Below are positions 14,588 to 46,673 of a stretch of 64,000 bases of DNA, piece by piece; within the stretch, counting starts at the first letter, position 1; the number at the start of each line of letters is the position of its first letter. Under the pieces are notes generated by a model, which saw only the letters and a program-made list of their open reading frames with translations, had not been told where the DNA came from and made no database searches. Origin of the DNA: Tachypleus tridentatus (taxonomy: Eukaryota > Arthropoda > Merostomata > Xiphosura > Limulidae). A program made the translations under genes and the position numbers. Location of the stretch: contig NC_134830.1 of assembly GCF_004210375.1 (NCBI RefSeq), forward strand, positions 44,707,094 through 44,771,093, written 5' to 3'.

Positions 14588-14884
14588 ATATTAATAGTTT
14601 GTTTGTTTGTTTTGGAATTTCGCACAAAGCTACTCGAGGACTATCTGTGCTAGCCGTCCCTAATTTAGCAGTGTAAGACTCGAGGGAAGGCAGCTAGTCA
14701 TCACCACCCACCGTCAACTCTTGGGCTACTCTTTTACCAACGAATAGTGGGATTGACCGTCACATTATACGCCCCCACGGCTGGGAGGGCGAGCATGTTT
14801 AGCGCGACGCGGGCGCGAACCCGCAACCCTCGGATTACGAGTCGCACGCCCTACGCGCTTGGCCATGCCGGGCCATATTAATAG
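14588..14884 (-). mobile_element. SINE family A, full length, perfect 10-bp target duplication
   Basis: ATATTAATAG lies at 14588-14597 and 14875-14884, bounding the body 14598-14874. On minus the body starts GGCCCGGCATGGCCAAGCGC (A box region) and carries GGGTTCGCGCCC in the B box position. It ends GCTTTGTGCGAAATTCC and (AAAC)n. A and B box spacing is that of a tRNA, implying RNA polymerase III transcription. The anticodon loop reads CTCGTAA-like in most copies, as in tRNA-Thr(CGT). This copy defines the termini of the family. Confidence 0.92.
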
Positions 14885-15197
14885 AAACCATTGTAAAATT
14901 ACGGCTCATTACAATCTTGTGCAATATACAAAGATCAGATATTGTTATTATTATTATCCACAATATACTGGAATACAGTAACAATAAGACGTTGGTTACA
15001 ACTTATGCTTGTAGATAATTAACATCTGTTTTGAGTTCGTAATAGAATACGATGCTAATTACCTAAGTGAAACAGAAGGAAATAAAGAAAATAATAGGCT
15101 TTGTTACACTGTACGTATTGAAACCTGAGCTAAATATTCTGCACACAAGCAGATATGTTTTAAAATTTGGGGGGTAAATATCTGTTTTAGTATACTG

Positions 15198-15458
15198 TTC
15201 CTGGTGGTTAGGGCGAACGTTTAACAATATTCAAGTTGTGGATTCCAGTCCTGTCACGGAACATGCTCACCCTTTCAGCCGTGAAACCGTGATAATGCTA
15301 CAATCAATCACAGTCTTCGTTGGTAAAGAACAGTCCGTGAGTTGGTTGTGTGTGATGTTGACTATCTGTCTTCCTTTTAGTCTATAACTTCAAAATTAGG
15401 GATGACTAGCGTAGTTAGCCCTCTAGTGTAGCTTTGCGCGAAATTTAACAAAAAGTAA
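15198..15458 (+). mobile_element. SINE family A copy, diverged head
   Basis: GGTGGTTAGGGCGAACG, then CATGCTCACCCTTTCAGCC, CTTCGTTGGTAAAGAACAG and GTGTAGCTTTGCGCGAAATT. It is plus-oriented and about full length, and its B box is damaged. Confidence 0.8.
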
Positions 15459-15714
15459 CCTGTTTTGTACTATAGTACAGTATACTCTCCAGCATTAATT
15501 TCGAACTTTTGCTTGAGAAAAGGTTAGAGTATATTGCTCAAAGAGATATAAAATAAAAATAAAAACGTTAACCAACAGAAATATGAATTGTATAATCGAG
15601 TGAATTAAATTGCCTGCGAATTCTAGAATCGATAAGGTTAAATTATTAGTCGATGTGCAATGCGTTAATACGATCAAACATAAGAGATTTTGTTTTTGTT
15701 TTTTTTAATTTAGG

Positions 15715-15915
15715 TGCAGACTTAGCGATTAGCATGCTCCGACTGTTAATTGGAGGATTCATGGTTCGCGATTCGTTGCTACAAAACCATGCTCTGTGCT
15801 TTGGGTTTTTTATAAATGTTGATGAAACTGCGATTAGCCCAAGAAAGGAAAGTGGGTAATGTTGTATAACTGCTTATCTTCTATCTAATCTGTCAGATAA
15901 AAATTAGGGACGTAT
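15715..15915 (+). mobile_element. Fourth tRNA-like SINE type (family D), tentative
   Basis: GACTTAGCGATTAGCATGCT (A-box-like), then ATTCATGGTTCGCGATTCG (B-box-like) at tRNA spacing, followed by a body containing GATTAGCCCAAGAAAGGAAA. Its head differs from families A-C. It could also be a decayed tRNA-derived pseudogene. Confidence 0.45.
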
Positions 15916-16219
15916 GGAAACTGGTGAAACAAACAAGATTTAGGTTTCTTTTATTTTAGAACTGTTTGACACTTTCGAGAAAGAGACTAGAAACAAAATA
16001 ATAGTTACTAAAAGTTACACTCTAAGAATTAAATGAGGACTCATACTACCCACTTTTATAATACTTCAAGTATTTAGTCATTAATACGTGTCACATGTAC
16101 AGATTCCCAAGAAACATGAAAATGTCTTATTCCTCATAAAGGCTGTGCAAATGTTTAAGACTAAATGCACTAAACAGCTAAACAATTTTTCTTGTTTTGT
16201 TGGAGTTCCTGTGAACAGA

Positions 16220-16512
16220 CTTGAATCTTTCCTTCCCACCTTCCAACTTGAGGTATGACCCTCAATGTCCGTTCACGTACGAACATCGCTGAAATCTGGG
16301 CTTCTGTTCACCGCGGTGGACACAGTGGATGATAACCCAGAAATGTATCTCAAAACGGTTGGTATGGGTATTAACACTTTCATTGATAAACGAGTAGCCT
16401 AAGAGTTGATTGTGATGAGTTGCTGTCTTCTCTCTAATGTTACATTAGAGACGAATAACAAACGTAGCCCTCGTGTAGCTTTACAGAAAATTCGAAAACA
16501 AGCAAACAAGTT
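16220..16512 (+). mobile_element. SINE relic with A-like 3' half
   Basis: TTCACCGCGGTGGACACAGT, then GGTATGGGTATTAACACTTT, GATAAACGAGTAGCC and CCTCGTGTAGCTTTACAG, with an A-rich end. The right half aligns to family A, but the left half looks like family C or D, so this may be a composite family. Confidence 0.5.
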
Positions 16513-16614
16513 TCTCTCTGAAAGACAAACAATCTCTGCGGTTAAGTGAATCATGATAAAATATATATTAAATTACAAAAACCACACGCACTCAAAACAG
16601 AATATATGTAAATT

Positions 16615-17435
16615 TAGGGGTGGGCAAAAAGTGGCCCCTTGAAATTGTTGTTAATTCGTTATATCTTCTATTAAACAACAGAAAAATACGTGAAACTATG
16701 TGTTTTTAAAACGTACTCGACGAAATTTGTTCAAATATCATTTTAAACCCTGATTTCAACAATGATTTTCGTAAATACCTGAACTTTTCATGATTTTAGT
16801 TACATTTTTTTCTTTAAAACTGTTCTGCACCTGATGTTGGTTTTTGTAATAAGTGTTCTGCACCTGATGTAGGTTTTCAAATCTTCTTATTCCAATTAGT
16901 CAACAAAAGGATCAAACAGATTTCTCTGAAATTGTAGAGTCATTAAAAGATCTCTTAGAAATAAGAGAATTGATGTTATAGAATGGCCAGATCAGTCACC
17001 TAATATCAATCCAATTGAAAATTCTCCGTCTCACCAAACATGTTCGCCCTTTCAGCCGTGTGGGCGTTATAATGTGACGGTCAATCCCACTATTCGTTGG
17101 TAAAAGAGTAGCCCAAGAGTTGGCGGTGGGTGATGATGACTAGCTGCCTTTCCTCTAGTCTTACACTGCTAAATTAGGGACGACTAGCGCAGATAATCCT
17201 CGTGTAGCTTTGCGCAAAATTCAAAACAAACTAAACCGATTGAAAATCTATGGTCTGAGTTAACACCGATTAACAAAAGAGTACAAACCAGACACAGAAG
17301 ATAAACGTTTGCAGTACTTAAAGAAGGATAACAGTCAATCACTGTAAAAACGAAACATATCTCTGTTGTCTAATAACAGATATACAAATGAACAATATTT
17401 TCAAAGGTGGCCACTTTTTGTTGTCCACCCTTGTA
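16615..17435 (+). mobile_element. Tc1-like transposon remnant interrupted by a SINE
   Basis: The left end GGGGTGGGCAAAAAGTGGCC and the inverted right end (reverse complement GGGTGGACAACAAAAAGTGG) are clear terminal repeats, with TA at 16615-16616 and 17434-17435. About 16975-17022 plus 17237-17310 reads EWPDQSPNINPIENLWSEL across the SINE insertion. This is the conserved block around the last acidic residue of the Tc1 DDE triad. The first two catalytic positions are not recognisable. A 37-bp internal duplication (TTCTGCACCTGATGT) lies at about 16822-16878. Confidence 0.75.
17011..17249 (+). mobile_element. 5'-truncated SINE family A inside the Tc1-like element
   Basis: The body 17026-17235 starts at CCGTCTCACCAAACATG, so nearly all the tRNA head is missing. 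It ends GCTTTGCGCAAAATTC and AAACAAACT. CCAATTGAAAATTCT on the left and CCGATTGAAAATCTA on the right are an imperfect target duplication drawn from the transposase coding sequence. The SINE therefore arrived after the transposon. Confidence 0.85.
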
Positions 17436-19400
17436 TATATACACTTACCGTCAGTATTAAGATGTACCAAAGCTCAATTACGATTTATAATTTGTTATCT
17501 GATTTTGTTTTTGCTTTTTTTTAAATATAAGTTCGCGAATTTTTATTATTACTTCGAAATTAAAGGTAAAACTATTGGAAAAATTCAGATTTATCCAGAA
17601 TAACGACTCATCTTCACCCGTCAGAATAACGACTCTTCTTCCCGTGACCCCCAACCTCACACATCCTTTTGAACATTAGGAAGTAATTTGTCTTTTAGCC
17701 AAGGTAACACGACTGAATATTTTTTATCCGTATTCAAAGCAGTGACATCATTGGCCTATATTCATAAATTCATTATAAAATCACATTATGTTATGAGATA
17801 GTCCTGTTTATCTTTATCACTATAAGATTTTAGAACTTTATTGTTTGTTTTATTATCTTAACAAAGTGTCGTAAAGTGGTTGCCCGGTTTTTCTTACCAA
17901 AACCTGTAAAAGTTTGGGTAATGATCACAAGAATAAAACTAAAGTTACTACAAAACAGGATGAGCCAGATCTTTGCTTACTCACTACTATATATTCTCAC
18001 TAAATATATTAAATTTACGTTAAATAAGATGAATCATTTCCTGCTCTTGGTGCTCTTATCACGTGACGATGTTGTCTCACATTACATATGCCTTTTCGGT
18101 AAACCTACACAAACTAACACTTAACCTCACGAAACAAAAACAAACCCTTTTAGTTTGTTAGTTCAACAAGTCAGTATAATTTATATAAATTAAATAACTA
18201 TGTTTTTCTGAGATATTTTGAAACTTAGTAGAATTTTCAGCTCACTTTACAAATGGGCGCTTTATTATTTAAGTATAAAATTAATGTAATTTTAAGAAAA
18301 GGCAACATTAACTTACCATCTTTCTCATAAGTTCAGGGAAGTAATTACTACTCAGTCAACATTTTAATCTTCCGCTGAGATGAGCCTTATTTAAAGTTGT
18401 AAATTCGTAAATATACTGCTAACCAACTGAGGACTCTTGTTTTAATATTAACGAACTAAGTACGAGTCAAGTCAAAATTCTAATTTGCTTTTGAGAATCG
18501 ATGTCAACATTCCCCAAACAGGCTTCACTCTGACTGTAACTTGTATAACTTCTAAATTTTTACTTGTTGACGAAGCGGACCAGTAAATGATAAATCTCAA
18601 AACTTCTTGTCTTTACAGACGAACTCATATACCTGGTTTAAGTAGTCTTGTAAGTGAATTAATACGTTGAATAACAGCTTTTAAATACGTTTGAATGATG
18701 GGATTTGTTATTTTACTAAATTAAATTGTACTATAAAGATTGAATACAATTTGTAAATGGTACTATTCAATTAATTTTTTTGATAAATATAAATCATTTT
18801 TAATTGAATTTTAATTATCATTAATTATTATTATTTATTATACATTATTTCTGTCATTATTTCTACTTCTTGAACTTTACCGTTCTTACAACTCTTACTG
18901 GGTACAGATTGGCCATGTCATATGAAACTGTATTTTGAAGCTAATAATCCGGCTTGAAATCCTTGTGATACCACTAAATGTTCCTCTCACTTTTAAACTT
19001 TTATGAGCGTCATAAGACTGACAACCCACTAGCGTGAATAGTGAGTGGTAAGCTACTTTTATCTGGTTGGCTTCTGGTCAGTAGCTCAAAATTAAAGATA
19101 AAAGATAAAAACAAATGTTGAGGAAGGATAAAAATATTACTAGATTAAAATATAGTTTTTGGAACTAAATGATTTTTTTATAAAATTCTTAAGAGATTAT
19201 CCAAAATATAAACCTATATATTGTTTGGTTAGCTAATTAATTTTAATTATTTAAAACTAATTATTGATGAATACACAAAACATACAGAGAAATATAGCAT
19301 TAATTATTTTATGTGTTAATTATTGTAAGATTAATTTAAAGATACAGTTTGAGAAAACTTTGAATGAAAGCTTCGTGTACGTTAAATTGGTTCCATCATG
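17436..19400. other. Unassigned AT-rich stretch
   Basis: No gene is recognisable. A short family C-like trace in reverse (AAAGTTGTAAATTCGTAAAT, then CTGAGGAC) lies near 18385-18435. The rest is AT-rich sequence with no repeats that I could pair. Confidence 0.4.
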
Positions 19401-20075
19401 AAAATGTAAGTCTTGTGTCTGCTACATTGACGACATATTCCAGTTGTTATGGAAATGATGATCACACGTCTGTTAACTTAATTCATATTCTAATTACCAT
19501 TAAACGAAAGTTACGTGCTTGTTAAATTAACTCCATGTTCTAATTATCATGAAAATGAAAGTCACTTGTCAGTTAAATTAATTCCATATTCTAATACCAC
19601 GAAGACGAAAGTCACGTGTTTGTTAAATTAACTCCATATTCCAATTATCATGAAAATAAAAAGTTAGGTGTCTATTGAATTGACTCCATATTTGAATTAC
19701 CATGAAAATGAAAGTCACGTGTCTGTTAAGTTAGCTCCATATTCTCAGCACCATAAAAACAAATATCGCTTGTTTGTTAAAATTGATTTTATATTTCAAA
19801 TACTGTGAAAATGAAAGTCGCGCGTGTGTTAAATTCGTTCCAAATTCCAATTACCATAAAAATAAATGTCACATTTCTGTTCATTTAACCTCATATTCCA
19901 GTTGCCATGAAAATGGAAGTTAGGTGTTTGTCAAATTAAACCAATATTTCAATTACAACGAAAACAAAATCATGTATTTGTTAAATTAACTTCATATTTC
20001 TTTTACCAAGAAAATGAAAATCACATGTGTGTTAAATGAACCTGATATTCCAAGTACTTTGGAAGATAACTTTGT
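19400..20075. repeat. Minisatellite, about 51 bp x 13, diverged
   Basis: The consensus contains GAAAGTCACGTGTCTGTTAA, then ATTAACTCCATATTCCAATT and ACCATGAAAAT. Measured spacings of the GTCAC block are 50, 52 and 51 bp (19561, 19611, 19663, 19714). Copies differ by 15-30 per cent, so the array is old. Many units contain CACGTG. Confidence 0.85.
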
Positions 20076-20783
20076 TAAATTAATTCTCTGTGTTTCTTGT
20101 AGAAAGAAACGAGATCACTTACTGCTGGTTATTCGTCTGTAATAGTGCTTTATAAAATGCCGACAGCTATAGTTGCAATCCATGCAAAACGTTCACGTTA
20201 ACTTGATCCCAACAAAGCAGGTGATTTACAGTCGGTGTACATTCTCTGTCAAGAGAGAAATATCTCTATTGTATTTTGAGAAATTTTATGTTTTACCTTT
20301 CAGTTTATATATATCTGTTCAAAAAGAGAAATTGCACTAGAAACAAAGACGGTGCATATTAGGTTTCAAATTGCTAGGTTCGAAATTTAAGACGTCGTAG
20401 AGGTAATTTTAGTATATTTAGTAATTTTTAAGACAGCAAGCCTTACAACACTGAAAACAGAGTAAATTTTTGTGTTTTACTTAAATATTTCAAATGCTAA
20501 AAAATAACAAGTAGTGAGTTGAAAACATTGTGCCTTACATTTCACTAGACAACAGATTTACAATGTTGTTTTCACACTATTACTGGTAATGTGTTCCAGT
20601 AAATAAACAAATATTGATTTTATCATACATACAGTAATGTTTATGATTAGATTTATTCTATAAATATAGTTTAAGCGCTTCTCTCACTCCCTTTTCTGTA
20701 AGAGCGTAATCTTACATTGTCACCCCTGGCATTACTCATGAGAAAACTAACGTTTGAACTGTATGCTGGTTTCCATTTTAGGG
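20076..20783. other. Unassigned stretch
   Basis: Nothing recognisable between the 51-bp array and the next SINE. Confidence 0.4.
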
Positions 20784-20787
20784 TTAA

Positions 20788-21040
20788 TTGGTTGTAATGC
20801 ATTTCACGCAAAGTTACATGAGGGTTATGTGCGTTAGCTGTTCCTATGTTAACAGTGAAAGACTAGAGGGAAAGTAACTAGTCATCATCAACCACCGCCA
20901 ACATTTGAGCTATTATTTTACCAACGAATAGTGGGACTGATCGTGATATTATAAAGTCCTCACGGCTGACAGGGTGAGTATGTTTGGTGGGAAGAATATT
21001 CGAACCCGCGACCAGCAGATTATAATCTAGTTAGGAACCT
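20788..21040 (-). mobile_element. SINE family A copy, diverged
   Basis: ATTTCACGCAAAGTTACATG, then ACCAACGAATAGTGGGACTG, GGTGAGTATGTTTGGTGGG and TTCGAACCCGCGACC. The head end is eroded at about 21030-21040. Confidence 0.8.
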
Positions 21041-21055
21041 CGACTCATATGTAAG

Positions 21056-21145
21056 TCCTGATTTGGACCCTCTGAGAGGATTAGTTGTAAACCTCTTCCT
21101 GCCCTCAAGACTGTTATCTCTAAATACCACAGAGATCAGGGTTCA
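21056..21145. repeat. 90-bp cloverleaf-like dispersed repeat, copy 1
   Basis: It runs from TCCTGATTTGGACCCTCTGA to AGAGATCAGGGTTCA. It matches the second copy at 22132-22221 at about nine bases in ten, although the flanks are unrelated. On minus it can fold as a terminal stem plus three arms, including TCTTG/CAGGA and AGAGG/CCTCT. Confidence 0.7.
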
Positions 21146-21169
21146 CCTACTGAATTTACGGAACACAGT

Positions 21170-21425
21170 GGCTGTGTGTTAGTTACATCAACCTGGTTCG
21201 TTCTTATAATTTTACCGAACATCGTGACTTTGTTTATACCAACGTGATTAGTTCTGATAGCTTTACCGAACATCGTGACTGTGTTTATATCAACGTGATT
21301 AATTTTAATAGCTTTACCGAACACCGTGACTATGTTCATTTCAACGTGATTAGTTTGATAGCTTTACCAAACATCGTGACTGTGTTTATATAAACGTGGT
21401 TAGTTCTGATAACTTTATCGTATCA
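21170..21425. repeat. Minisatellite, 51 bp x 5
   Basis: ACATCGTGACTGTGTTTATA, then TCAACGTGATTAGTTCTGAT and AGCTTTACCGA. GTGAC recurs at 21224, 21275, 21326 and 21376 (51, 51 and 50 bp). Because 51 is a multiple of three, a minus-strand frame stays open across it. I regard that frame as a by-product. Confidence 0.9.
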
Positions 21426-21959
21426 TCAGGTGATCAAGCAACGTGGTTTCAGAAATAATTAATGATTTATTGAACGTTTCGGGCACTGTTAAAATTATAT
21501 CTAAAATAATGTTTTGAAAACAAGGGCACCAGTCATTTTAAAATCTACATATTCAGCTGAACAAATGTGACACGAGTGTCAAAGTACAACCGCTGTAGCA
21601 CAATCTTTTAACAGGGGCAGATAGTGTTACTCTCAGTAATTACGTGTTTATTACTTGGATCACATGATGACCAGCTGTGTAGTTTTAGTTAGTTAAGGAA
21701 TAACTATTTCCTAAGTAAGTTGTTTCTTAAAATAGGAAACACGAATAATTCATCTGGAAGAATTTAATTTGTAAACAAGTTAAGAAGAGACAGACCCAGG
21801 TGGCTTTATTTTAAATAAAACGTGATATGTTATTGACTCTAAACACCAAACACCCCCCCCCACCAAAAAAAAAATACAAAATGAAAAGAGACACGAGTTC
21901 AGGTAAACGACAACTGGATAAAACTGTAACTAGAAATAAGTAAAGGTTAAACTGAGAAA

Positions 21960-22100
21960 AAGCAAAGTCCCCTTAACCTTGCTGAGAAGGCATACGTGTA
22001 TAATCACTATCAGGTTAACTTTGCTGCGAAATTATGAATACATATACAACCACTGTTACGTTAACCTTGCTGAAAAAGCATACGTTTAGAACTACTGTCA
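21960..22100. repeat. Short tandem repeat, about 55 bp x 2.5
   Basis: CCTTAACCTTGCTGAGAAGG, GGTTAACTTTGCTGCGAAAT and CGTTAACCTTGCTGAAAAAG mark three successive starts, each followed by a CATACGT-like block and an ACTGT/ACTATCA block. Confidence 0.65.
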
Positions 22101-22131
22101 AGACAGTTACTACTTGAAGTAAATTATAGAA

Positions 22132-22221
22132 TCCTGATCTGGACCCTCTGAGATGATTAGTTGTAAACCTCTTCCTGCCCACAGGACTGTTATCTCTAAA
22201 TACCACAGAGATCAGGGTTCA
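22132..22221. repeat. 90-bp cloverleaf-like dispersed repeat, copy 2
   Basis: The ends are inverted repeats: GAATCCTGATCT at the left and, in reverse complement, GAACCCTGATCT at the right (11 of 12). On minus the interior contains three self-complementary arms: CTGT/ACAG closing TAT/ATA, TCCTG/CAGGA with a 4-base loop, and AGAGGTT/AATCATCT. The copy is oriented as copy 1 and lies 1076 bp from it. Confidence 0.7.
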
Positions 22222-22953: not shown

Positions 22954-23139
22954 TGGCCCAGCATGGACAGGTCGTTAGGGAGCTCGACTCGCAATTTGAG
23001 GGTCGCGGGTTTCAATCCCAGTCACATCAAACATGCTCACACTTTCAGCAGTAAGGGCTTTATAAAGTGACGGTCGATCCCATTATTCGTTGGCAGAAGA
23101 GCAGCCAAAGAGTTAACAGGGAGTGGTGACGACTAACAA
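22954..23139 (+). mobile_element. SINE family A, 3'-truncated
   Basis: GGCCCAGCATGGACAGGTCG, GGTCGCGGGTTTCAATCCC and CATTATTCGTTGGCAGAAGA are present. The copy stops at GTGACGACTAAC where the 51-bp array begins, so the tail was lost or overwritten by array growth. Confidence 0.8.
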
Positions 23140-23144
23140 AGAGC

Positions 23145-24175
23145 TACACATCTACTGAGTGCTGTCTATGTTATACTGACATGGGTAACAGCAGTTACAA
23201 ATCTACTGAGTGTTGTCAAGTTTACACTGACACAGGTAACAAACAGCTACACATCTACTGAGTACTGTCTATGTTATACTGACATGGGTAACAGTAGTTA
23301 CAAATGTACTGAGTATTGTCAAGTTTACACTGACACAGGTAACAAACAGCTACACATTTACTCAGTACTGTCCATGTTATACTGACACAGGTAACAGTAG
23401 TTACAAATATACTGAGCACTGTCCACGTTATACTGACACAAGAAAGAGTGGTTGAAAACCTAATGATTATTGTCCTTGTTATACTCACATACGTAACATA
23501 GTTACAAATCTACTGAGTATTGACCATGTTATACTGATACAAGTAACAGTTGTTAAAACTCTACTGAGTACTGTCCAGGTAACATAGACGGGGGTAACAT
23601 TAATTACAAATCTACTGAATATTGACCAAAATATTCTGAAACAGGTAACAGGAGTTACAAATATATTTAGTTTTGTGCAAGTTATTCTGACACAGGTAAC
23701 AGTAGCTACAAACCTACTGATTATTGTCCTTTTTAAACTGACACAGGTAACAGTAGTTCAAAATCTACTAACTACTGTCCATATTATACTGACACAGATA
23801 ACAATAGTTAGAATTCTACTGAGTATTGTCCATGTTATACAAACTTATTTAGACATAGGCAACAGTTGTTACAAATCTATTGAATACTGTCCATGTCATA
23901 CTGACACAAGTAACAAACAGAAACACATCTACTGAGTACTTACTGTCCATGTTATCCCGGCATAAGTAACAGTAGTTTCAAATCTACTGAGTATTGTCCA
24001 CGTTATACCGACGCAGGTAACAAACAACTACACATCTGCTGAGTACTGTCCGTGTTATACTGATACAGGTAATAGTAGTTTCAAATCTACTGATTATTGT
24101 CTATGTTATACTGACATAGGTAAGAAACAACTGCACATCTTTTGAGTATTTTTCAAGTTTTATTAACACAAGTTG
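23145..24175. repeat. Minisatellite, 51-52 bp x about 20, partly dimeric
   Basis: Each unit has TCTACTGAGTACTGTCCATG, then TTATACTGACACAGGTAACA. The end of the unit alternates between GTAGTTACAAA (51 bp) and AACAGCTACACA (52 bp), giving a partial 103-bp higher-order period. Starts were measured at 23145, 23196 and 23248. The array shows moderate divergence and is open in several frames by chance. Confidence 0.9.
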
Positions 24176-24427
24176 CTACTTAAGACTTGTGTTAAATTTA
24201 TTCGGCTTCATTATCAATAACAACAACGTCAGTTGTAACCAAATCATGTAGCTCATTACTTTCAGATAGTGAGTTTTTTAACTTCCTTCTTTTTTTAACG
24301 TTATATCCGAGTTATTAGTGTCGTTTCCCCGTACTTCTACAATATTATAAGTTTTCATTTTACTATTACTTGTAAAAGCACAAAACCAGTCCTTGTTGCA
24401 TTTATTAATTAATTAGTGATCGATTGT
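24176..24427. other. Unassigned stretch
   Basis: AT-rich, with nothing recognisable. Confidence 0.35.
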
Positions 24428-24531: not shown

Positions 24532-24879
24532 TCTTACTGCAACTGGACACACAAAACACATCTTCATTTTTTACCTTTAGCAACTCTTTGTAACTGAACT
24601 TCATAATTTCTCAATATCTGTATTAAACTACAAAAACCTTTAGTATAGATATATGAATAATATTATACTAGTTTATTGTTGTCGTTGTTTTTCAAATTGT
24701 AACAGTTAATGCTATATTTACTGTACAAATATCTTTATTCATGTTTTAAACATACATATCAACATATTTGTGTAAACAAAATCTCACAGTTACCCAAACG
24801 TATGAAGCAATGAAAAAGGGAATAAAAGGCGTGACATTAAATAATTGTTTTTACAAACACATACGTAGTCATGTTTTAA

Positions 24880-25350
24880 AACATAGACAAATAGAGCTGT
24901 GAGTTGTGTATTTATTAAACACAGACAAATAAAGCTGTGAGTTGTGTATTTATTAAACATAAACAAATAAAACTGTGAGTTGTGTATTTATTAAACATAG
25001 ACAATATTTATTAAACATAGACAAATAAAGCTGTGAGCTGTGTATTTATTAAACATAGACAAATAAAACTGTGAGTTGTGTATTTATTAAACATAGACAA
25101 ATAAAGCTGTGAGCTGTGTATTTATTAAACATAGACAAATAAAGCTGTGAGTTGAGTATTTATTAAACATAGACAAAACTGTGAGTTGTGTATTTATTAA
25201 ACATAGGCAAATAAAGCTGTAAGTTGTGTATTTATTAAACATAGACAAATAAAGCTGTGAGTTGTGTATTTATTAAACATAGACAAATAAAGCTGTGAGT
25301 TGTGTATTTATTAAAAATAGACAAATAAAATTGTGAGTTGTGTATTTATT
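24880..25350. repeat. Minisatellite, 38 bp x 12, each unit with AATAAA and a GT-rich block
   Basis: The unit reads AATAAAGCTGTGAGTTGTGT, then ATTTATTAAACATAGACA. Twelve copies differ at one to three positions, and one 19-bp partial unit duplication lies near 25003-25021. AATAAA occurs on plus and, through TTTATT, also on minus. Low divergence suggests recent expansion. Confidence 0.92.
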
Positions 25351-25878
25351 CGTGATTTCGCTTTAGCCATTTTTATTTTTTTTATAATTTACCAATTCGT
25401 AAATAACAACTATAGTGCCACAATTGACATCTAACCATTTGTTCATGACTTTTATGCAGTATACATGTTAATGAAAAGTGCACACACACATGCACACGAC
25501 GTTCCTGGAAGACAACTTCAGTACAACAGTTTCATCTGTAACATCAATACTCAAAGCTACCGGAAATGACGCAATGAAGAAATTAATGTCGTCATGATCG
25601 TAAATATTCTCTTTCCTTACTTTTTCCATTTCGTAGATTGGATGAAGTAAAAAAGTATTTTCAAATCCTACTACCATTTGTCCTTGACTATTCATGACGT
25701 TGGTATTTTTGTAAGTTCTTGGAATTAAACTTGAAATCAATACCACAATCTCATTTACACACTTTACCTATTTTTATTTTCTACCTCTGTTGATTGCCAA
25801 ATTTCTAGGTGTGGAATACACAATTCTTTATAATAATATTAACGTTTATAAAAAAATAAATCCCACCTTTCTCTCATC
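25351..25878. other. Unassigned stretch
   Basis: A minus-strand open frame at 25468-25746 (92 codons) has mixed composition. I find no domain, good Kozak context or clear splice sites, so I do not call it a gene. Confidence 0.4.
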
Positions 25879-31847: not shown

Positions 31848-33124
31848 CTGGAAAATTATGTAACTTTCATTCAGGCCAATTCTCGTGAATAACAAACACT
31901 TTTATACTATAGAGCATTATCAACATTTTGAAGTAATACTGGCAAACAATACTAGTAACTTCAAGGCTTGACATCTAAGGTACTTTAAAAAAAGGATACC
32001 TCCAGTTTATTCACGTAGTACAAAATAATAATTGTCGTTGAATTTATTATATCTATTATATATATATATATATTAAGTCGTTATGTATGATGCTAGAAAA
32101 ATGTAAACGTTCACTGAAATAAACGCCACACAATGTCATGAAAACGTTTGCGTTAAATATGGATAAGGAATATATTATGTCAATGTAATTAATGCAACTT
32201 TAATTAATTAATTAGTACGTAGAAGTAGATCTTCCTTCCACATAAGAGCAAGACCGACTAACATTAAAAGGTATACGTACAGTTAGACAAAGAATTGTGT
32301 GTTCAAAATGTGAATCAAAAACACGCGAATCAGGCACTAAACAATAACGTTGAATATTTGACATTTCACCAGCAAATGTTAAAAGTAAAGCACTACATTA
32401 TGTGTCTCCTGCCGTAACCTTTACAGGTGAACAGAAGGAAAAATGTGGTTCACTGTAATTCAATCAAGAAAACTTATACACGTGTTTACATCTGTTATAC
32501 AATTATCGTCGCTGGCGGTTTTGGCTGTGGTTTCGAACTATTCTTCCGTATAAATAATTTTGTATTCACAACATTATCGTTTCTTTAAAATAACTAATAT
32601 ACGTGCAGAATGACTGATATTACCATTTTAATGTATTCATATTACCAGTTAGTACATACCTGAAATATTCAACAAAATTTTAAATGCACATTACCATACT
32701 GTAAAAGGTAAGTACGATACTAGCTGTAGAACAAAGAATGGAACAAACTAGGATCCAGCCACGAAAATAACAACAAACATTCCCGTTTCAACTCTTGTAA
32801 AGAGAGTTTTACGTAGTTTTCTAAACGCTTGTCCAGAAAAACTAGTCACTTGTGGTCGGTTGTCAAACACTACTAGATAAGGAATACCGTAGCAGTATCC
32901 CTGGGAATTAGTTATCGATTCAATGTTTTTCAATATCAACTGGAAATAAATTAAAAACTCAAGTTGTGACATTATTAAATGTCTAAAAAAACTATTTTGG
33001 ATTTGGTTGGATAAGCAGTCTGTTTGTTTACCACACTAAAATATAATAATCTCTAAGCCTTGGCAGAAGCGACTCAGGATGGGGTAGGAAAGTAAATATC
33101 GGTTAGGAGACGTTTCTATTGTTT

Positions 33125-33178
33125 AGTTGTTATACATTACAAATCACAACTAGTTGTTATACGTTACAAATCACAACT
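33125..33178. repeat. 28-bp x 2 tandem repeat
   Basis: TAGTTGTTATACATTACAAA then TCACAAC, repeated once with one change (CGTTAC). Confidence 0.8.
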
Positions 33179-33234
33179 GAATAGTGTTCAGAAAAATAAC
33201 ATTTCCACGTACTTGATGATGGAAATGCAAAGTA

Positions 33235-34066
33235 ACATGACTAAAAGTTACCAAGCATTCAAACTACGAGAAGGTACTGCAGAGGAACACGACTAAAAGT
33301 TACCAAGCATTCAAACTACGAGAAGGTGCTGCAGAGGAACACGACTAAAAGTTACCAAGCATTCAAACTACGAGAAGGTGCTGCAGAGGAACACGACTAA
33401 AAGTTACCAAGCATTCAAACTACGAGAAGGTGCTGCAGAGGAACACGACTAAAAGTTACCAAGCATTCAAACTACGAGAAGGTACTGCAGAGGAACACGA
33501 CTAAAAGTTACCAAGCATTCAAACTACGAGAAGGTACTGCAGAGGAACACGACTAAAAGTTACCAAGCATTCAAACTACGAGAAGGTACTGCAGAGGAAC
33601 ACGACTAAAAGTTACCAAGCATTCAAACTACGAGAAGGTACTGCAGAGGAACACGACTAAAAGTTACCAAGCATTCAAACTACGAGAAGGTACTGCAGAG
33701 GAACACGACTAAAACACGACTAAAGTTACCAAGCATTCAAACTACGAGAAGGTACTGCAGAGGAACACGACTAAAGTTACCAAGCATTCAAACTACGAGA
33801 AGGTACTGCAGAGGAACACGACTAAAAGTTACCAAGCATTCAAACTACGAGAAGGTACTGCAGAGGAACACGACTAAAAGTTACCAAGCATTCAAACTAC
33901 GAGAAGGTACTGCAGAAGAACACGACAAAACGTTACCAAGCATTCAAACTACGAGAAGGTACTGCAGAGGAACACGACTAAAAGTTACCAAGCATTCAAA
34001 CTACGAGAAGGTACTGCAAAGGAACACGACTAAAAGTTACCAAGCATTCAATCTACGAGAAGGTAC
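33235..34066. repeat. Minisatellite, 52 bp x 16, nearly identical copies
   Basis: The unit reads ACACGACTAAAAGTTACCAA, then GCATTCAAACTACGAGAAGG and TACTGCAGAGGA. Sixteen starts were counted from 33248 to 34036, almost all 52 bp apart. Exceptions are an 11-bp internal duplication (ACACGACTAAA at 33709-33724) and 51-bp units that lost one A. Two sub-types (GGTGCTGC and GGTACTGC) cluster in blocks, showing unequal exchange. The array ends inside GGTAC, where the Tc1-like element starts. Confidence 0.95.
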
Positions 34067-34822
34067 TACATGGCCAAAAGTATGTGGACACCCTTTCTAA
34101 TTAGTGTGTTCGGCTAGTTCAGCCACACTTATTGCTAACTGGTGCATAAAATCAAGCAGACAGCCATACAATCTCCATCGACAAACACTGGCAGTAGAAT
34201 GGGTCGTACTGAAGAGCTCAGTGACTTTCAACGCGGCACTGTCATAGGATGCCACCTTTCCAACAAGTCAGTTCGTCAAATTTCTGCTCTGCTAGAGATG
34301 CCTCGATCAACTGTAAGTGCTGTTATTGGGAAGTAAAAACATCTAGGAACAACAACAGCATAGTGCCAACTGCAAAGTATTGTGGAGAATGCATTAAGAT
34401 TTCCCTTCACTGGAACTAAAGAGCCTTGTCCAAACCATGAAAACAGCGCCAGACCAATAATGTTTATTATTAATCAACGTGTGAAGTCGATTAATCTGTT
34501 ATCAATGTACATTCTTCATGAACGTGCGACCACAACCCCATCGAACACCTTTGGGATGAACTGAAACGCCGATTGCGAACCAGGCCTTCTCGCCTGACAT
34601 CAGTGCTCGGCCTCACTAATGATCTTGTGGCTGAATAGGAGCGAATCCCCATAGCTATGTTTTAAAATATAGTGAAAAGCCTTCCCAGAAAAGTGGAAGC
34701 TGTTATAGCAGCAAATGGGGAACCAACTCCGTATTAATGCCCATGGTTTTGGAATGAGATGTTCAACAAGCACATATGAGTGCGATGGTCTGGTATCCAC
34801 ATACTTCCTGCCATGTAGTGTA
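34064..34822 (+). mobile_element. Tc1-like transposon with internal deletions, 755 bp
   Basis: The left end CTACATGGCCAAAAGTATGT and the inverted right end CTACATGGCAGGAAGTATGT continue as GGACACC and GGATACC, with TA at 34064-34065 and 34821-34822. Plus-strand remnants: 34200-34336 carries an N-terminal helix-turn-helix (FQRGTVIGCHLSNKSVRQI, then PRSTVSAVIGK), and 34530-34735 carries NPIEHLWDELKRRLRTRPS and a C-terminal VEAVIAANG. The segment with the first two catalytic Asp residues is missing, and stops occur, for example after IGK. Non-autonomous. Confidence 0.88.
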
Positions 34823-36595: not shown

Positions 36596-36598
36596 AAA

Positions 36599-37176: not shown

Positions 37177-37195
37177 TAGAAATACTATTGTATTT

Positions 37196-38260: not shown

Positions 38261-38414
38261 CTGTGGACAAAAGAACACATTGTGATTGGAAAATTTACAC
38301 GTTGGACTTCTGGTGAACTATGAAGGAATTTGTTTGGAAAGTTTAAATATTTTACTGTAATACTAATAAGTATATAAATAAGTGCATTAGGTTTTAGCTT
38401 AAGAAAAAAGAGTA

Positions 38415-38526
38415 ATTTTTTATAGCAAAGCCACATTGGGCTATCTGCTGAGTCCACCGAGGGGAATCGAACCCCTGATTTTAGCTTTGTAAATCCGAAG
38501 ATTTACCACTGTATCAGCGACGGACA
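38415..38526 (-). mobile_element. SINE family C, best-preserved copy
   Basis: On minus: GTCCGTCGCTGATACAGTGG, then GGATTTACAAAGC, a perfect B box GGTTCGATTCCCC, and the tail GCAGATAGCCCAATGTGGCT followed by TTGCTATAAAAA. It is about 112 bp long. The tail folds as GCA/TGC over AGCC/GGCT. Confidence 0.85.
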
Positions 38527-39932: not shown

Positions 39933-40159
39933 CGTAGGTGATTTGTTTATAAAGACGTTAAGCTGAAGTATGTGTTATATCACACACAGGATAACATACA
40001 ATTATCGAAAACCTTAAATAAATTTACAGCAGATAAGCAAGGAAAAAAATTATATGACTTTGTAAAATGTCCGCGAAAAGCTATGTATGAACTCTTTCCG
40101 CATAGCCATCCCTACTTAAGAAATGGTAACCGATAAAGGAAGGCACCTAATCAACAGTG
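39933..40159. other. Unassigned short stretch
   Basis: Nothing recognised. A C-run lies at 40162-40170 at the start of the next SINE. Confidence 0.3.
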
Positions 40160-40279
40160 CCCCCCCCCCTCGTGGCACGCATTATGTCTCGGGTTTACAA
40201 CGCTAAAAACCGATACCAGTGGAGGGCAAAGCACACATAACCCATTGTGTAGTTCTGTGCTTAATGACAAACAATAAAA
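40160..40279 (+). mobile_element. SINE family B copy
   Basis: CTCGTGGCACGCATTATGTC, then GTTTACAACGCTAAAAACCG and GCAAAGCACACATAACCCAT. The B box is reduced to CGATACC. Confidence 0.75.
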
Positions 40280-41190
40280 ATAGCCAGCAGCACTTAACGC
40301 CAATTATTGGGTTACCCTATTCGATTAGCGCATCTACAACCCAAGAGTGTGGAACGTATTTTTATAGCAATAGCACACGAGCAACAAGACCACACCCAGC
40401 TCAACTTATAATAATCTCAACTAAACTCAAAAGCAGTTTTTGGGTTAAATGGAGATATTTCATACACTCCGTCAACTAAACTAAGTAAACAAGCTAACTA
40501 CTTTGTTCTAATACATTTCGAATTTTATAGCGAGTATAAAAGTAGAAAATTATTAGTTAAAAAAAATAACCTAAAAACCTCTATCTTCGATCGACCTGCT
40601 AACCATTAGGCCTAGCTAAATTTTATTCGGCGTATCATTCAAAAGAACACAGTCTTTGATAACTTTTCTTTCATGACCGAAAGCCGTAGCTTGTAACAGG
40701 TTTTATTATATATCTTTAACTTTCTTCGAAGTATTGAGGAGAATAAGGTGTTACCTGAAAAACCGGTTTAATCGTGAGGAAAAGGAACTGTTGTAAGTAT
40801 GTTATCTTTTTAGGCGTACGATACGTGACTTCATTGAAAATAGTGGAAGCTTGGTAACGTGAGCTATTATTAACTGTCGAAATGCATACTGCAACCACTT
40901 ATAAAAACCAATACGTTAAAAGGTATATCGGTTTCAATTATAGTCCTAACTACATTCTGAGAAATACCTTACGGAACGTATGTTATTCGAAAATGACTAA
41001 TTTTAAAAATTATTACATTTCACAGCGGCCTAACGATCCATGACAGTCCTCTGTGATACCAAATGGTAATTATTTATCAATTAAAAAGAAAAGAGGAGAC
41101 AGAGATAGTGGAGAAACTATTTAGTGGAAATACATATGATGAGAGTTTTGTGTCTTAAAATGATTTTAACAGTAAACAGGAAGAAGGTAT
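40280..41190. other. Unassigned stretch
   Basis: On minus, 40756-40885 could be read as an exon between TGGTTGCAG and CAG/GTAACA, but the product is featureless, so I do not call it. Confidence 0.35.
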
Positions 41191-41450
41191 TCGTTTTTAT
41201 ATTTCGCCCAAAGCAACACGAGGGCTATCTGCGCTGGCCGTCCCTGATATAACAGTGTAAGATTAGAAGAAAGGCAGCTAGTCATCATTACCAACCACCA
41301 ACTCTTGGTCTCTTATTTTACCAACGAATAACGGGATTGATTGTCACATTATAACGCCCCCACGGCTGAAAGGGGGAGTATATTTACTGTGACAGGGATT
41401 CTAACCCACGACTCTTAGATTACAAGTCGATCGCCCTAAATACCTGGCCA
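41191..41450 (-). mobile_element. SINE family A copy
   Basis: ATATTTCGCCCAAAGCAACA, then ACCAACGAATAACGGGATTG, AACGCCCCCACGGCTGAAAG and CCTAAATACCTGGCC. Full length in minus orientation. Confidence 0.88.
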
Positions 41451-41930
41451 GAAGGAATTACTGAAAATAAGGGTATAAAAGTGCTGGTTTTCGTAAGCTG
41501 TTACCCATACTCCCACGTTTGATATATATGGTCATGAAAGAATAATTTCGGGCTTCATGTGAATCGACCGCTTGGCGTTTTGTTGTTTTACATACACGTC
41601 TATTCGTGTGTCAAATTCCTTGAAATATCAAAGTGAATTTCTATAACAGCTGCGAAAGTCTGTAAGATCAGCTCTCATCAACTGAGAAAGGCAGAAGAAT
41701 AATGGAAAATACGTATTATTTAGTTAAATATTATCAGACCAATAATGTCCACATATGAATCGTTTAATTACAGACCTGACGTATGTTAACATTCCAATCC
41801 TCGAGTCGTTACGGTTTCTCTATGTTCTTCCAAAACCCACTTATATGTTTCTTGTTTTAGTTAGCTTAAAGTTTTGTTTTTTTGTTTTCAGAACAAAGCC
41901 CCTGTTTCCACTTTGTTTGATTCCGTTTTA
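41451..41930. other. Unassigned stretch
   Basis: No gene or repeat recognised. Confidence 0.35.
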
Positions 41931-41934
41931 CTTC

Positions 41935-42238
41935 TTCAGGTTACACATGCTTATCTTTACTGCTATCATATGAACCTGTCTTTACCGTTATTATACATGC
42001 CTATCTTTATCTCTATTACAAATGCCTGTATTTACTACTATTACACATTCCTATCTTTACCCCTATTATATGTATCTATTTTTACCTCTATTACACGTGT
42101 GTCCTTACCGCTATTGCACATGCCACTCTTTAGCCCTATTACAAATGCCTGTCTTTGCTATTATTACAGATTCCTATCTTTACCCCATTCTATATGCCTA
42201 TGTTTTTTTACTCCTATTGCACATGCCTATATTCTGAG
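41935..42238. repeat. Pyrimidine-rich minisatellite, 27 bp x 11
   Basis: The unit approximates TATCTTTACCCCTATTACAC then ATGCCTA, with many substitutions. Because 27 is a multiple of three and the units lack stops, overlapping open frames of 60-120 codons appear on plus in all three phases. They have repetitive Leu/Ile/Tyr/Thr composition and are not genes in my view. Confidence 0.85.
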
Positions 42239-43334
42239 CTAACACTATACAAGGACAACATCAATTTTAACCTGCTTGCTTCAGTAATCACTTTCAAACA
42301 GGTTAAAGCGACTTTCATAATATTAATAAAAGTTCTTGACCAATCTATTTCAAGTATCCACGTTCGTGGAGAACACACTGGACAGATCTAACAATAGCCA
42401 CATTCGATGCAATAAGTCAATGTTTGTCTCAAAGTTGATTTCTGACACCGTTCGTAATCACAGGAAATACACATTCGTTACCCTTCAGAAGGGTATTCAC
42501 ACAATTTTATCCCATATTGAGTTAGAAATAAGTTAACCAACGATGTTATCGTCTTCAGTAATTCACAAGTATATGAAATTTAGTATAGGTAACGCCCTAA
42601 CCACCCGGCCACGCTAGGCCAAACAACATGGCAATCTGAAATTAAAGACACTGAAGCAGAACTCGGTCCAAAAACAAGTTCGACGTCAAATAAAATGGAA
42701 TCTTATTGGTGACAAGTTATCCTTACAAAAAGAAAAGTTCAGTGTCGGGAGAATCCTTACCTAATGTCTTCAGTGAAGTTTAAAAAATATTTAACTTTGC
42801 GAGTCGAGTGCCTTAACCACGAGGCCAGGCAACAGAAAGTGTATAGGTCATGAAAGGCTTAATATAAAATGAAGATATTGTAGAAATCCAACTGGATAAA
42901 AAACATAGTACTGTCATACAAACCAAGTAAGATTACTTGGATAAAGCTAGTGTTTTGAATGACACAATTTAATCTGATTCAAATTATGAACCTACTAAAT
43001 ATAACAAAAAAACAGAAACACTCTAATTCGATTGTAAAGAACTTTTTTAAATTTAAAGGAGAAGAAAAACATGACCTAAAACATAATATTTAGATAGAAG
43101 ACCATCAGGAAATGATCCTGAAGTTCTTTGTGGATTTCCCAATGTCCATTATTTCAAGTATCAGCTTTATTCATTACGCTCCAACACTGTTGTTAGTTCA
43201 TTTTTAGGGTAAAATTCACTGATCACAAACGCGATTTGAAATAACAGCTTTGGTTTGAAATTAGAACACAAACTTAAAGAGCCTGCTAGGTTTGAAAAAG
43301 AAACTTTGTTCACCAACATGGTCTATAGATGATT
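42239..43334. other. Unassigned stretch with two SINE A head fragments
   Basis: AACGCCCTAACCACCCGGCC (42588-42620) and GAGTCGAGTGCCTTAACCAC (about 42798-42832) are isolated pieces of the family A head in reverse. They are 210 bp apart with no SINE body between them. Confidence 0.5.
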
Positions 43335-43468
43335 GTTTGGTTAGTTCATTGGTTGTTATTAAGAGCAATACTACACAATGGACTATCTGTGCTCTGCCAT
43401 CACAGGTACTAAAACCCAATATTTAGCGTCGTAAGCATCCAAACTTACCATTCAACCACTGTGGTACC
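43335..43468 (-). mobile_element. SINE family B copy
   Basis: TTGTTATTAAGAGCAATACT, then CTGTGCTCTGCCATCACAGG and CGTCGTAAGCATCCAAACTT. Confidence 0.7.
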
Positions 43469-43609
43469 CTACAGAGGAAACTATAAATCATGGAGTTGTC
43501 TTCGTTTATAATGACAGTGAAATATATGAGGAACGTGTTTTTTAAAAAAACACGAAATGTAAAACAAAAGGAATATCTTCTTGTCAACAAACTCTTTATG
43601 CTCAAACAG

Positions 43610-43812
43610 ATGGCCCTCACTTAGCAGTGAAAGACTAGAAGAAAGGCAGCTAGTCAATAACACCCACCGCCAAATCTTCGAATACTCTTTTAACAACAAA
43701 AAACGAAATTGACTCTCCAACAGCTGAAAAGGCGAGCATGTCTGATGCGATTCGAACCCAAAACACGATTATTGCGAGTCGGGTGTCCTAACCACCTGAT
43801 CATGCCAGGTCC
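43610..43812 (-). mobile_element. SINE family A, tail-truncated
   Basis: CACTTAGCAGTGAAAGACTA, then ACCCACCGCCAAATCTTCG, GCGATTCGAACCC and CCTAACCACCTGATCATGCC. The tail hairpin is missing, and a short insertion lies between the B box and the anticodon arm. Confidence 0.82.
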
Positions 43813-44796
43813 GTAAATGCGAGTCCAAAATTATTTTTTTCAAAATACCTTAACAGTATTCTTTACAATAGCGGGTCCACCAAGTTTCATTTCTGTCACA
43901 AAAATCAGTAGCAATTTATCAAACTAAAAACATTCCAATTTTTTGCTTTAATACTGGAACTTTCGTACTAGTGTTATTAAAACTTAAAAACAATAATCAT
44001 AAAATCAGAAATATCTCCACTGGCGTAATATATAATATGACCAGTGACTTCTTAAACAAGCAGAACTACTCCGAAAATAATTTGAATACAATGTTTGTAA
44101 ATTATCGATACCTGTAACATTGTTCTGTAGTACGGTATGTATTAAAAAAAAAAACAACTGAGTAAATTTGTTCATACACTTATTACATATCAACACATAT
44201 AGTTAAGATGCATTTAAACTCTCCTTGTGGGTTACAGTAGTTTTAAGATGTATTATTTCAACCCACTTGTCACAACTGCACATAATGCTACATCGGTCAC
44301 ACCACGAGATGGTAAAAGTTCGTGTAAACAAGTATTAAAACACCAAAGCATTATCAGGTCCACCGAATTTGACCACGCCTTTAAGTGAGAGCGACAATTT
44401 TTTCCTGTCAAATTATTTCAAGATCTTATCTGAGTCAAGTTATTACGTAGTGTACATATAAAGCAGGGTCTATCTAATTCCTAGTAGAATCAAGTGAAGT
44501 CAGTAGTTAACAACCAACTTATAGAATGATGTCATCTGGATGTAATAATTAAAGAAACTGTTTACCCGCCTCAGTATGGACTGAGATCTAGTCTGAAAAT
44601 TTGTGACCTGAAACACACTGTTGGTCCGTCTGTCATTTATGATGATTCCTTTTGTGTGTGTGGTTAATTTGATAAATATTTTGTTGCCACTATGGTAAAC
44701 ACTTCTGTTCTTAACCTGGTAAATTTTGTGGTAAATATGGTAAACATTTTGCAGTTTATACGAACTATTAAATACGGTTGTATTACTCGTTTGTAC
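43813..44796. other. Unassigned stretch
   Basis: No convincing gene. A 42-bp stretch (minus, about 44567-44608) between GTGTTTCAG and CGG/GTAAAC is open, but it has a weak acceptor and no recognisable product. The long minus frame 44500-45051 is partly SINE-derived. Confidence 0.35.
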
Positions 44797-44908
44797 CTCA
44801 TTAATGGCACACCAATACGTCCACGAACCTATGCTACTAGAAACCAGGTTTCGATACCCGTGGCGGGCAGCGCACGGATATCTTTGCGTTAATAACAAAT
44901 AATAACTA
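44797..44908 (+). mobile_element. SINE family B copy, first of a head-to-tail pair
   Basis: AATGGCACACCAATACGTCC, then GGTTTCGATACCCGTGGCGG (intact B box) and GCGCACGGATATCTTTGCG. Confidence 0.82.
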
Positions 44909-44923
44909 CTACAACCTTGTTTA

Positions 44924-45053
44924 GCCCCCCAGAGGCACTGCGGATTGTCTACAAGCTCACATCGCGAGAAATCGGGTTTCGATACCCGAGGCGGGCAAAG
45001 CACAGATAGCCCATTGTGTAGCTTTGTGCTTAATTCCAAATAAACAAACAAAT
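44924..45053 (+). mobile_element. SINE family B copy, second of the pair, well preserved
   Basis: CCAGAGGCACTGCGGATTGT, then GGGTTTCGATACCCGAGGCG and the tail GCACAGATAGCCCATTGTGT, then AGCTTTGTGC and (AAAC)n. The tail hairpin GCACA/TGTGC is perfect. Confidence 0.9.
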
Positions 45054-45288
45054 TGTTTATCTTTACATTGCTAACAAAACAAATCTTTGTTAATATGACA
45101 CAAATTTACAGTAGGTGTCACTGTTAGTGATATGTTTTAGATATTCATCAACATTACCGTAGAATATGTTGCATTGCCCCCAGTTATTAGTTGGGTGTTG
45201 GACGAATCCCAAACTATACATGCAAAACATTTACATAAGATGGCGCAAAGACAAAATGTTATGCAACTTATATTCGAGGATATACAAT

Positions 45289-45362
45289 TCGTTTGTTTTT
45301 GTTGAATTCCGCCTAAAGTTACACTTGGTCTACCCGGGCTTGTTGTTCCTAATTTAGAAGAG
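45289..45362 (-). mobile_element. SINE family A tail fragment
   Basis: GTTTGTTTTTGTTGAATTCC, then GCCTAAAGTTACACTTGGTC and GTTCCTAATTTAGAAGAG. It stops where a second copy begins. Confidence 0.7.
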
Positions 45363-45369
45363 ACACAGA

Positions 45370-45626
45370 CTGTTTGTTCGTTTTTGAATTTCGCGCAAAG
45401 GCAGCCGTCCCTAAATTAGCAATGTAAGATTAGAAGGAAGGTAGGTGGTCATCACCGCCCACGGCCAATTCTTGGGCTACTCTTTCACCAAAGAACAGTA
45501 GGGCTGACTGTCACATTATAACGCCCCCACGACTGAAAGGGCGAATATGTTTGGTATAATGGGGATTCGAACCTGCGACCCTCAGATTACGAGTCGAGTG
45601 CCTTAACCACCTGGTCATGCCAGGCT
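45370..45626 (-). mobile_element. SINE family A copy with deletion in the tail hairpin
   Basis: GAATTTCGCGCAAAGGCAGC shows that the segment between CGCAAAG and CAGCCGTCC was lost, while the rest runs intact to GGGGATTCGAACCTGCGACC and CTGGTCATGCCAGGC. Confidence 0.88.
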
Positions 45627-46407
45627 TATGATATAGATAGTCTACACTTTCGCTAGAAAAGTAGGATTTACCTTCGTATTATTACATTTTATATCAACAT
45701 GTGTTTCATAAAACAATATTAATTATAAAGTAATTAATATGACAACTTTATAAGTCACAACAATTACTTGCAAAAATTGTTCCTCCTAAAATAACGCTTC
45801 GCTTGGGATCTAAATTTCTTCTCTTAGTAAACTTCTATTTTTATCACATGCTAAGTGTTTTATTTTGTAAGTATATTTAAAAATTTCATTTGACATCCAA
45901 TAATACTCAAAAGATTTAGTTTTCCTTTAAAACTCACAATGAGCACAAAACTAAAATAATACCTAAAGCTTATTAAAATTATTTAATATACAATTAGTTA
46001 CCCACAAATAGTAACATAAAACAGAATAATTTATCCTCCAAGTACAACTACTCACTCCCTCTGCAGGGCCGTACCGACGTTTGACGGCGCCCTGTTCAAC
46101 ATATATTCGGTGGCTTCCAACATCCTACCCACCAAAAAATATTATTATTAATATTTATGCATTATATAAACTGTTATAATCATTACAAAATATAATTTTA
46201 ATAAAAAGATATTGTGCACACATTCAATTTATCCTTAAGCGCAATGTAAATTTTGAATATAACCAACAAAGAAGCTAAACATCCGGGCAGTTGACTGTTT
46301 CTAAACACACATTCAACAAGCAATATGGAACTGTTCGCCCCATCCACAAGAACTGCCTTGATTTAAGTAAGCAAACAGTAACTCATCTTGTTAGTTAATC
46401 AGGTAAC
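45627..46407. other. Unassigned stretch
   Basis: AGGGCCGTACCGACGTTTGA then CGGCGCCC near 46065-46100 is GC-rich and resembles transposon ends I have seen elsewhere, but I found no partner end. Confidence 0.35.
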
Positions 46408-46673
46408 CGGGCTTGACTGGCCAGGTGGTTAAGATACTCGACTCGTAATCCGAGTTTCGCAGGTTCGAATCCCCGTCACACCAAACATGCTCGCCCTTTC
46501 AGCCGTGGGGACATTATAATGTTACGGTCAATCCCACTATTCGTTGGTAAAAGAGTAGCCCAAGAGTTGGCGGTGGGTGGTGATGACTAGCGCCTTCCCT
46601 CTAGTCTTACACTGCTAAATTAGGGACGGCTAGCACAGATAGCTCTCGAGTAGCTTTGTGCGAAATTGAAAAC
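46408..46673 (+). mobile_element. SINE family A, well preserved plus copy
   Basis: CTTGACTGGCCAGGTGGTTA (A box), then CTCGTAATCC and a perfect B box GGTTCGAATCCC. The body ends in a tail with GCACAGATAGC...GTAGCTTTGTGC, a perfect GCACA/TGTGC hairpin. Confidence 0.92.

Follow-up and report, generated by a model that had tools for sequence, protein, structure and literature searches.

A 3' tail with a predicted hairpin is shared by two lineages of short interspersed elements with tRNA-like heads in the horseshoe crab Tachypleus tridentatus

We analysed a 64,000-nucleotide stretch of the Tachypleus tridentatus genome (assembly GCF_004210375.1, contig NC_134830.1, positions 44,707,094 to 44,771,093; C6:44707094-44771093 in our contig numbering), hereafter the window. 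It contains many copies of three families, A, B and C, of short interspersed elements (SINEs), all of which end in a common 3' tail predicted to fold as a hairpin. Models built by iterated nhmmer within the window are about 259 nt long for A and about 115 nt for B and C jointly. In family A, a core of about 130 nt separates a head resembling transfer RNA (tRNA) from the tail, whereas in B and C the tail directly follows the head. The tail module of about 29 nt reads GCRCAGATAGCC-loop-GTAGCTTTGYGC and is followed by a short stretch and a simple repeat, (CA)n in C and (AAAC)n in the other two families. The first six copies below were cited in an earlier sequence-only reading of the window. All six are present at about the coordinates it gave, with hairpin arms reading as it described.

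46408..46680 (+): family A copy with tRNA-like head, core of about 130 nt and tail; hairpin at 46633-46661, arms GCACA/TGTGC, loop with CTCGAG
61233..61512 (-): family A copy; hairpin at 61258-61286, GCACA/TGTGC
14598..14874 (-): family A copy; hairpin at 14622-14650, GCACA/TGTGC
17022..17239 (+): family A copy without the 5' part of its head; hairpin at 17187-17215, GCGCA/TGCGC
44924..45060 (+): family B copy, tRNA-like head joined directly to tail; hairpin at 45000-45029, GCACA/TGTGC
38408..38526 (-): family C copy with B-type head; hairpin at 38425-38448, outer stem GCA/TGC, inner stem AGCC/GGCT
2479..2592 (-): family C copy; candidate target-site duplication CCTTTTCGAATT, found by eye
12019..12129 (+): family C copy, a dead one in which both sides have changed; arms GTA/TAC
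2041..2143 (-): family C copy
11696..11795 (-): family C copy, diverged
63006..63255 (+): family A copy; arms GCGCA/TGTGC, its 3' part repeated at 63324-63449 as a 194-bp tandem duplication
53389..53502 (-): family B copy adjoining a degraded A fragment at 53281-53389

To quantify the tail, we searched the assembly (2,167,478,450 bases in 205 contigs) with the spaced core pattern GATAGCCN{0,12}GTAGCTTTG, using the reversed pattern as a control. There were 159,836 exact cores in these 2.17 Gb (80,521 and 79,315 on the two strands) versus 3 for the control (2 and 1). Within the window the pattern matched 4 times and never across 100 shuffles, while a hidden Markov model of the tail, built from the cited window copies, gave 35 matches at E < 1e-3. 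The shared tail is real and far beyond chance, and the claim of a common 3' tail is borne out by these counts. The elements are short (about 115 nt for B and C, about 260 nt for A), dispersed and present in very high copy number, as SINEs are. In public collections the tail pattern matched 1 viral and 67 prokaryote sequences, where an arithmetic estimate of the chance expectation is about 60 for the prokaryote set; the A and B models gave no convincing match at these viral and prokaryote loci (best E 0.0057). At L076:1312-1781, part of the SINE tail (ACAGATAGCCCTCATGCAGCTTTG...) forms the unit of a tandem array, a tail-derived minisatellite with a period of about 43 bp.

The sequence-only reading described three unrelated heads, which proved wrong. 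When the window copies of B and C are aligned, they have one head in common from end to end, and their consensus heads align with a score of 45 (z 24.5), which none of 300 letter shuffles equalled. By the same measure the A head resembled neither that of B (z 1.5, 37 of 300 shuffles as good) nor that of C (z 2.6, 12 of 300). The B and C heads are thus homologous and that of A is different, giving two SINE lineages rather than three. Judged from its sequence, C belongs to the B type, its tail stem being shorter. The likeness of the heads to tRNA is a predicted one, drawn from consensus sequences under relaxed ARAGORN thresholds, at which the A and B consensus heads gave cloverleaf-like models. 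At default settings ARAGORN detected 0 tRNAs in the window, and Rfam returned a single tRNA match there (61444-61503, 25.1 bits, below the gathering score of 29). Target-site duplications of full-length copies were read by eye only, in some C copies.

One tail beneath two kinds of head is probably best explained by two tRNA-derived SINE lineages that carry the same 3' module, the hairpin of which is bound by a stringent-type reverse transcriptase (RT) of a long interspersed element (LINE). RNA polymerase III would transcribe the SINE from its head, the LINE RT would bind the tail hairpin, and the enzyme would then copy the SINE RNA into a nicked target site. Transcription by RNA polymerase III, binding of the fold by the enzyme and the LINE itself, in existence and identity, are all inferred.

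In the predicted fold, the outer stem has six pairs, one of them a G-U, and the inner stem has three; in C each stem has four. A 2-nt AU bulge lies between the stems, and the loop is 6 to 10 nt long. The main type of A has arms GCGCA/TGCGC, mostly with loop CTCGTG. An A subfamily and B have GCACA/TGTGC, so that pair 3 is A-U where the main A type has G-C. This A-U form with the A loop length occurs in 47,809 exact copies genome-wide; a hand count of the first 100 listed gave 87 with the CTCGAG loop and 1 with CTCGTG. In C the outer stem is short by two pairs, one stretch having been lost on each side, and a fourth inner pair is gained. The exact short-stem hairpin of C occurs in 12,303 copies versus 0 for its reversed pattern. 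The structural evidence is therefore two family-level events: one G-C/A-U swap and one two-sided shortening by 2 bp in C. The earlier reading had proposed examining family consensus sequences in place of dead copies, and these keep the outer stem through both events.

How far these two events argue for a fold depends on how else they could arise. RNAalifold found one pair changed on both sides across the four consensus hairpins; folding contributed -4.95 kcal/mol to its energy and covariation +0.31 kcal/mol. Most pairs, including the A inner pairs 9-23, 10-22 and 11-21, are identical in all four and are thus silent on structure. Such invariance would also fit a tail shared by descent and read as sequence rather than as a fold, one SINE lineage having handed its 3' end to another by template switching, with the paired differences reflecting founders plus CpG decay. 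We consider this explanation rather unlikely, yet several observations agree with it. Only one pair is swapped between consensus hairpins, and both changes of the G-C to A-U swap are CpG transitions, matching CpG decay on each side. Since the swap can arise on both sides by CpG decay alone, it is weak evidence by itself. The two-sided shortening in C is better evidence, as the loss of two pairs keeps the stem and goes beyond CpG decay. Moreover, the A-U form is a large, loop-linked subfamily, which implies that the swap was fixed in a copying lineage and did not come only from the decay of dead copies.

Changes inside families were examined in a non-random sample comprising 200 kb in 20 stretches (contigs C1 to C4, first 21 Mb), the window and eight 3-kb loci, which together yielded 72 A, 43 B and 20 C tails. 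Covariation tests used 54 of 67 A, 32 of 43 B and 18 of 20 C tails after the removal of duplicates (loci L074 and L072, one tandem copy) and of tails with a poor template score. We also counted changes by hand in 100 listed copies of the C hairpin and of the form with the CTCGAG loop, the latter listing spanning only the first 7.4 Mb of one contig. At pair 3, the first 100 listed CTCGAG copies comprised 81 A-U, 10 G-C, 7 G-U, 1 A-C and 1 other combination, and the two sides were associated (Fisher p = 1.3e-8). This association can reflect subfamilies as well as pairing.

Other results weigh against a conserved fold, and those on covariation inside families and on mispaired A-C copies also favor descent of the tail as plain sequence. 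Of 28 tests, left uncorrected, a single one showed a two-sided excess at p < 0.05 (pair 4 of B, p = 0.039); A pair 3 gave p = 0.073 and the other 26 were higher, so that covariation inside families is without clear excess. Among the C copies, pair 2 had changed on one side in 12 and on both sides in 0, and no compensated change was present at pair 2 or pair 4 of the CTCGAG copies. Mispaired A-C copies are common, numbering 4,635 genome-wide versus 6,120 with G-U, and 8 versus 7 among 53 sampled A copies. Dead copies decaying from two or more founders would produce such a within-family pattern. Although the four consensus hairpins fold at -8.2, -6.7, -8.2 and -8.1 kcal/mol, they are only modestly better than shuffles (z -0.85, -1.07, -1.15 and -1.99); once flanks are included, one B variant is less stable than its shuffles (z +0.87), and two other helices are favored in the A consensus. 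The A-C version of the hairpin weakens to -2.8 kcal/mol. We considered whether an excess of G-U over A-C revealed selection and dropped the idea, as the 7 versus 1 in the CTCGAG listing (p = 0.07) was not upheld by the genome-wide or sampled counts. Of the earlier claim that paired changes signify a conserved fold, what stands is that the stem is kept in the family consensus sequences, through the swap and the C shortening; a clear excess within families was lacking, CpG decay can mimic the swap, and the folding advantage is modest.

The search for the partner LINE adds to these adverse points. We scored 150 of 23,989 first-look candidates against the RT family PF00078 and read stretches of 2.1-2.2 kb downstream of 18 of these 150 hits; the best hits represent few LINE types, and some stretches may end before the end of the LINE. 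No LINE with the tail as its own end was present among these 18 stretches. On the LINE strand, the sole occurrence of the tail was a partial one in L104, immediately beyond the LINE's 3' end, and seven close relatives (L099, L100, L102, L103, L107, L108 and L110) had no tail match at that place. Five more tail matches, in four stretches, lay on the opposite strand, as ordinary SINE insertions would (E 0.87 to 2.6e-11). Of the earlier proposal that several SINEs share their tail with one LINE, the single tail under different tRNA-like heads holds, and the partner was not found among the stretches read. The 3' parts of L104 and its seven relatives are about 92-99% identical in the pairs seen, and TTTAG repeats form the end of L104. 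The best RT hits include several that are clustered in C14 (8.3-9.4 Mb) and C19. The LINE stretches that we read are of types we take to be Jockey-like and RTE-like.

LINEs that lack the tail as their own end would be expected if a relaxed-type LINE moved these elements through their (AAAC)n or (CA)n end, the hairpin being a passenger or a brake on reverse transcription. The position of the simple repeats, which end the elements after the hairpin, is also in keeping with such a route. Against it, 20-odd bases have been kept in two lineages that differ in their heads and 3' repeats, and a passenger would not need them. We regard a relaxed-type LINE as very improbable.

To look further for the partner LINE, we selected tails in which each of the five bases upstream departs from the A consensus, a pattern that selects hairpin starts by design. 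It gave 126 matches, and 0 in the control. We read 40 of these matches (20 chosen for variety and 20 in list order with skips), which represent 39 loci because L115 and L116 are one locus, and sorted them by eye with the A model's hits. At 23 of the 39 loci (14 from the first set and 9 from the second), the sequence ahead of the hairpin was neither SINE head nor core, and the insert started at or near the hairpin's first base. The remaining 16 (L124-L127, L134-L139, L141, L143, L144 and L150-L152) were either A copies that had lost internal parts or joins that were inverted or rearranged. Three of the loci read (L143, L127 and L152) have tails joined to an inverted SINE part or straight to an A head and may mark template switching. 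None of the 40 matches resembled a LINE end upstream of the tail, and in a pairwise comparison of the first 20, upstream sequence beyond SINE parts was shared only between L115 and L116.

Duplication-like flanks, defined by a local alignment score of at least 8, surrounded 19 of the 23 inserts (12 of 14 and 7 of 9), in comparison to 12.6% of 182 mismatched pairs, which were drawn from the first 14 loci alone. For 16 of the 23, the score was at least 8 and the upstream repeat ended no more than 3 bases from the hairpin start. Such flanks around bare tails imply that insertions of little more than the tail exist, which suggests that the tail is sufficient for copying.

We next compared start positions by requiring 0, 4 or 8 bases of family A to be kept upstream of the hairpin, which gave 126, 51 and 27 matches, respectively. 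The tail parts of these patterns are unequally strict (unconstrained counts of 5, 3 and 6 in 264 kb), and a random flank would pass with a chance of 0.254, 0.315 and 0.205. We judged the 4- and 8-base controls from their match listings. Many of the 27 matches at 8 bases resemble small deletions in full copies, and 11 begin AATTA; at 4 bases, 9 of the 51 resemble small deletions and 6 are one repeated sequence, TATGT (hand counts). The 5' ends of sampled A copies are otherwise scattered. The excess of starts at the hairpin is a suggestive peak and no proof. Separately, 11 of the 51 matches at 4 bases, from several genomic places, have AACAA just before GCTAGC, as if following the (AAAC)n end of another copy.

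It is possible, though we hold the idea tentatively, that the hairpin itself is the copied unit: the RT would recognize and copy it, often halting at the 5' base, so that inserts of about 45-60 nt made of the tail alone would be left, flanked by target-site duplications. Inserts that start at the hairpin base would also fit an RT of the relaxed type stopping there. If the hairpin is the copied unit, no smaller product of the system than these solo hairpins would be known, and they could act as seeds to which new tRNA heads attach, explaining one tail under two unrelated heads. The tail-only inserts offer natural evidence that the tail may suffice, and a place to ask where the RT stops.

SINEs are thought to capture the enzyme of a LINE by sharing its tail, and SINEs with LINE tails are well documented. 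One survey counts 58, several of them on one LINE, and describes plant cases with compensatory stem changes (PMC3747384). For ZfL2, binding of ORF2 proteins to the cognate 3' stem-loop has been shown experimentally (PMC4176376). Tail sharing between LINEs and SINEs is thus already known, and the present families are a new set of that kind. The papers listed by our literature searches held no description of these families, nor of horseshoe crab, Limulus or chelicerate SINEs with this tail, although Repbase may catalogue them; in the 20 of 22 papers listed for the SINE sequence strings, the first string alone was matched, by mouse or other primers. Protostome pairs are few in the table of the review, which lists one, the mosquito Gecko (PMC3747384, Table 1).

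Several known systems resemble the present one in part. Among salmonids, SmaI and FokI are described on SalL2, and SlmI, HpaI and OS-SINE1 on RSg-1 (PMC3747384), so that, as here, several SINEs of one genome with different heads share a single 3' tail, there that of one LINE. In contrast to our case, the LINE is known there, and the likeness is one of description rather than of compared tail sequences. In the account of Helicoverpa armigera (PMC3272025), HaSE1 and HaSE3 likewise have two different heads (tRNA and 5S rRNA) and a common 3' tail, associated with HaRTE1. They differ in having body and tail in common and a LINE of RTE type, whereas here the tail alone is common. Springhare Ped-1 and Ped-2 also place two heads (5S and tRNA) on one LINE tail, that of BovB, which belongs to another LINE clade and is a different tail (PMC3747384, Table 1).

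Maize and sorghum SINEs paired with LINE1-1_ZM come close to our families: they are described with a putative hairpin, compensatory stem changes between families and a 3' end of about 45-50 nt common to SINEs and LINEs (PMC3747384). Five compensatory changes are marked in them and their LINE is known, while our families show a single swap and a single two-sided shortening, with no partner found among the stretches read. UnaL2 and ZfL2, LINEs of the L2 clade, likewise have a 3' stem-loop followed by short repeats; there the ORF2 protein binds it, and stems are exchanged more freely than loops (PMC4176376). This likeness is of layout rather than of compared sequence, and no L2-type protein has been linked to the present tail. 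With two head lineages, three stem versions and very many copies, the roles of stem and loop could be teased apart by natural variation once the LINE is known.

Elsewhere in the window, positions 5406-7176 (-) hold a run of transposon-like open reading frames, two pieces of which had no Pfam match. Pfam gave one match, below its cut-off, for three open reading frames of the window, and among frames of at least 50 amino acids there was one unconvincing match to a loose RT motif. Besides the tail-derived array described above, minisatellite-like arrays occupy 33088-34174, 24795-25426, 47986-48503, 23059-24176, 19502-20084 and 49583-49988 of the window, with units near 52, 38, 52, 51 or 103, 51 and 42 bp, respectively.

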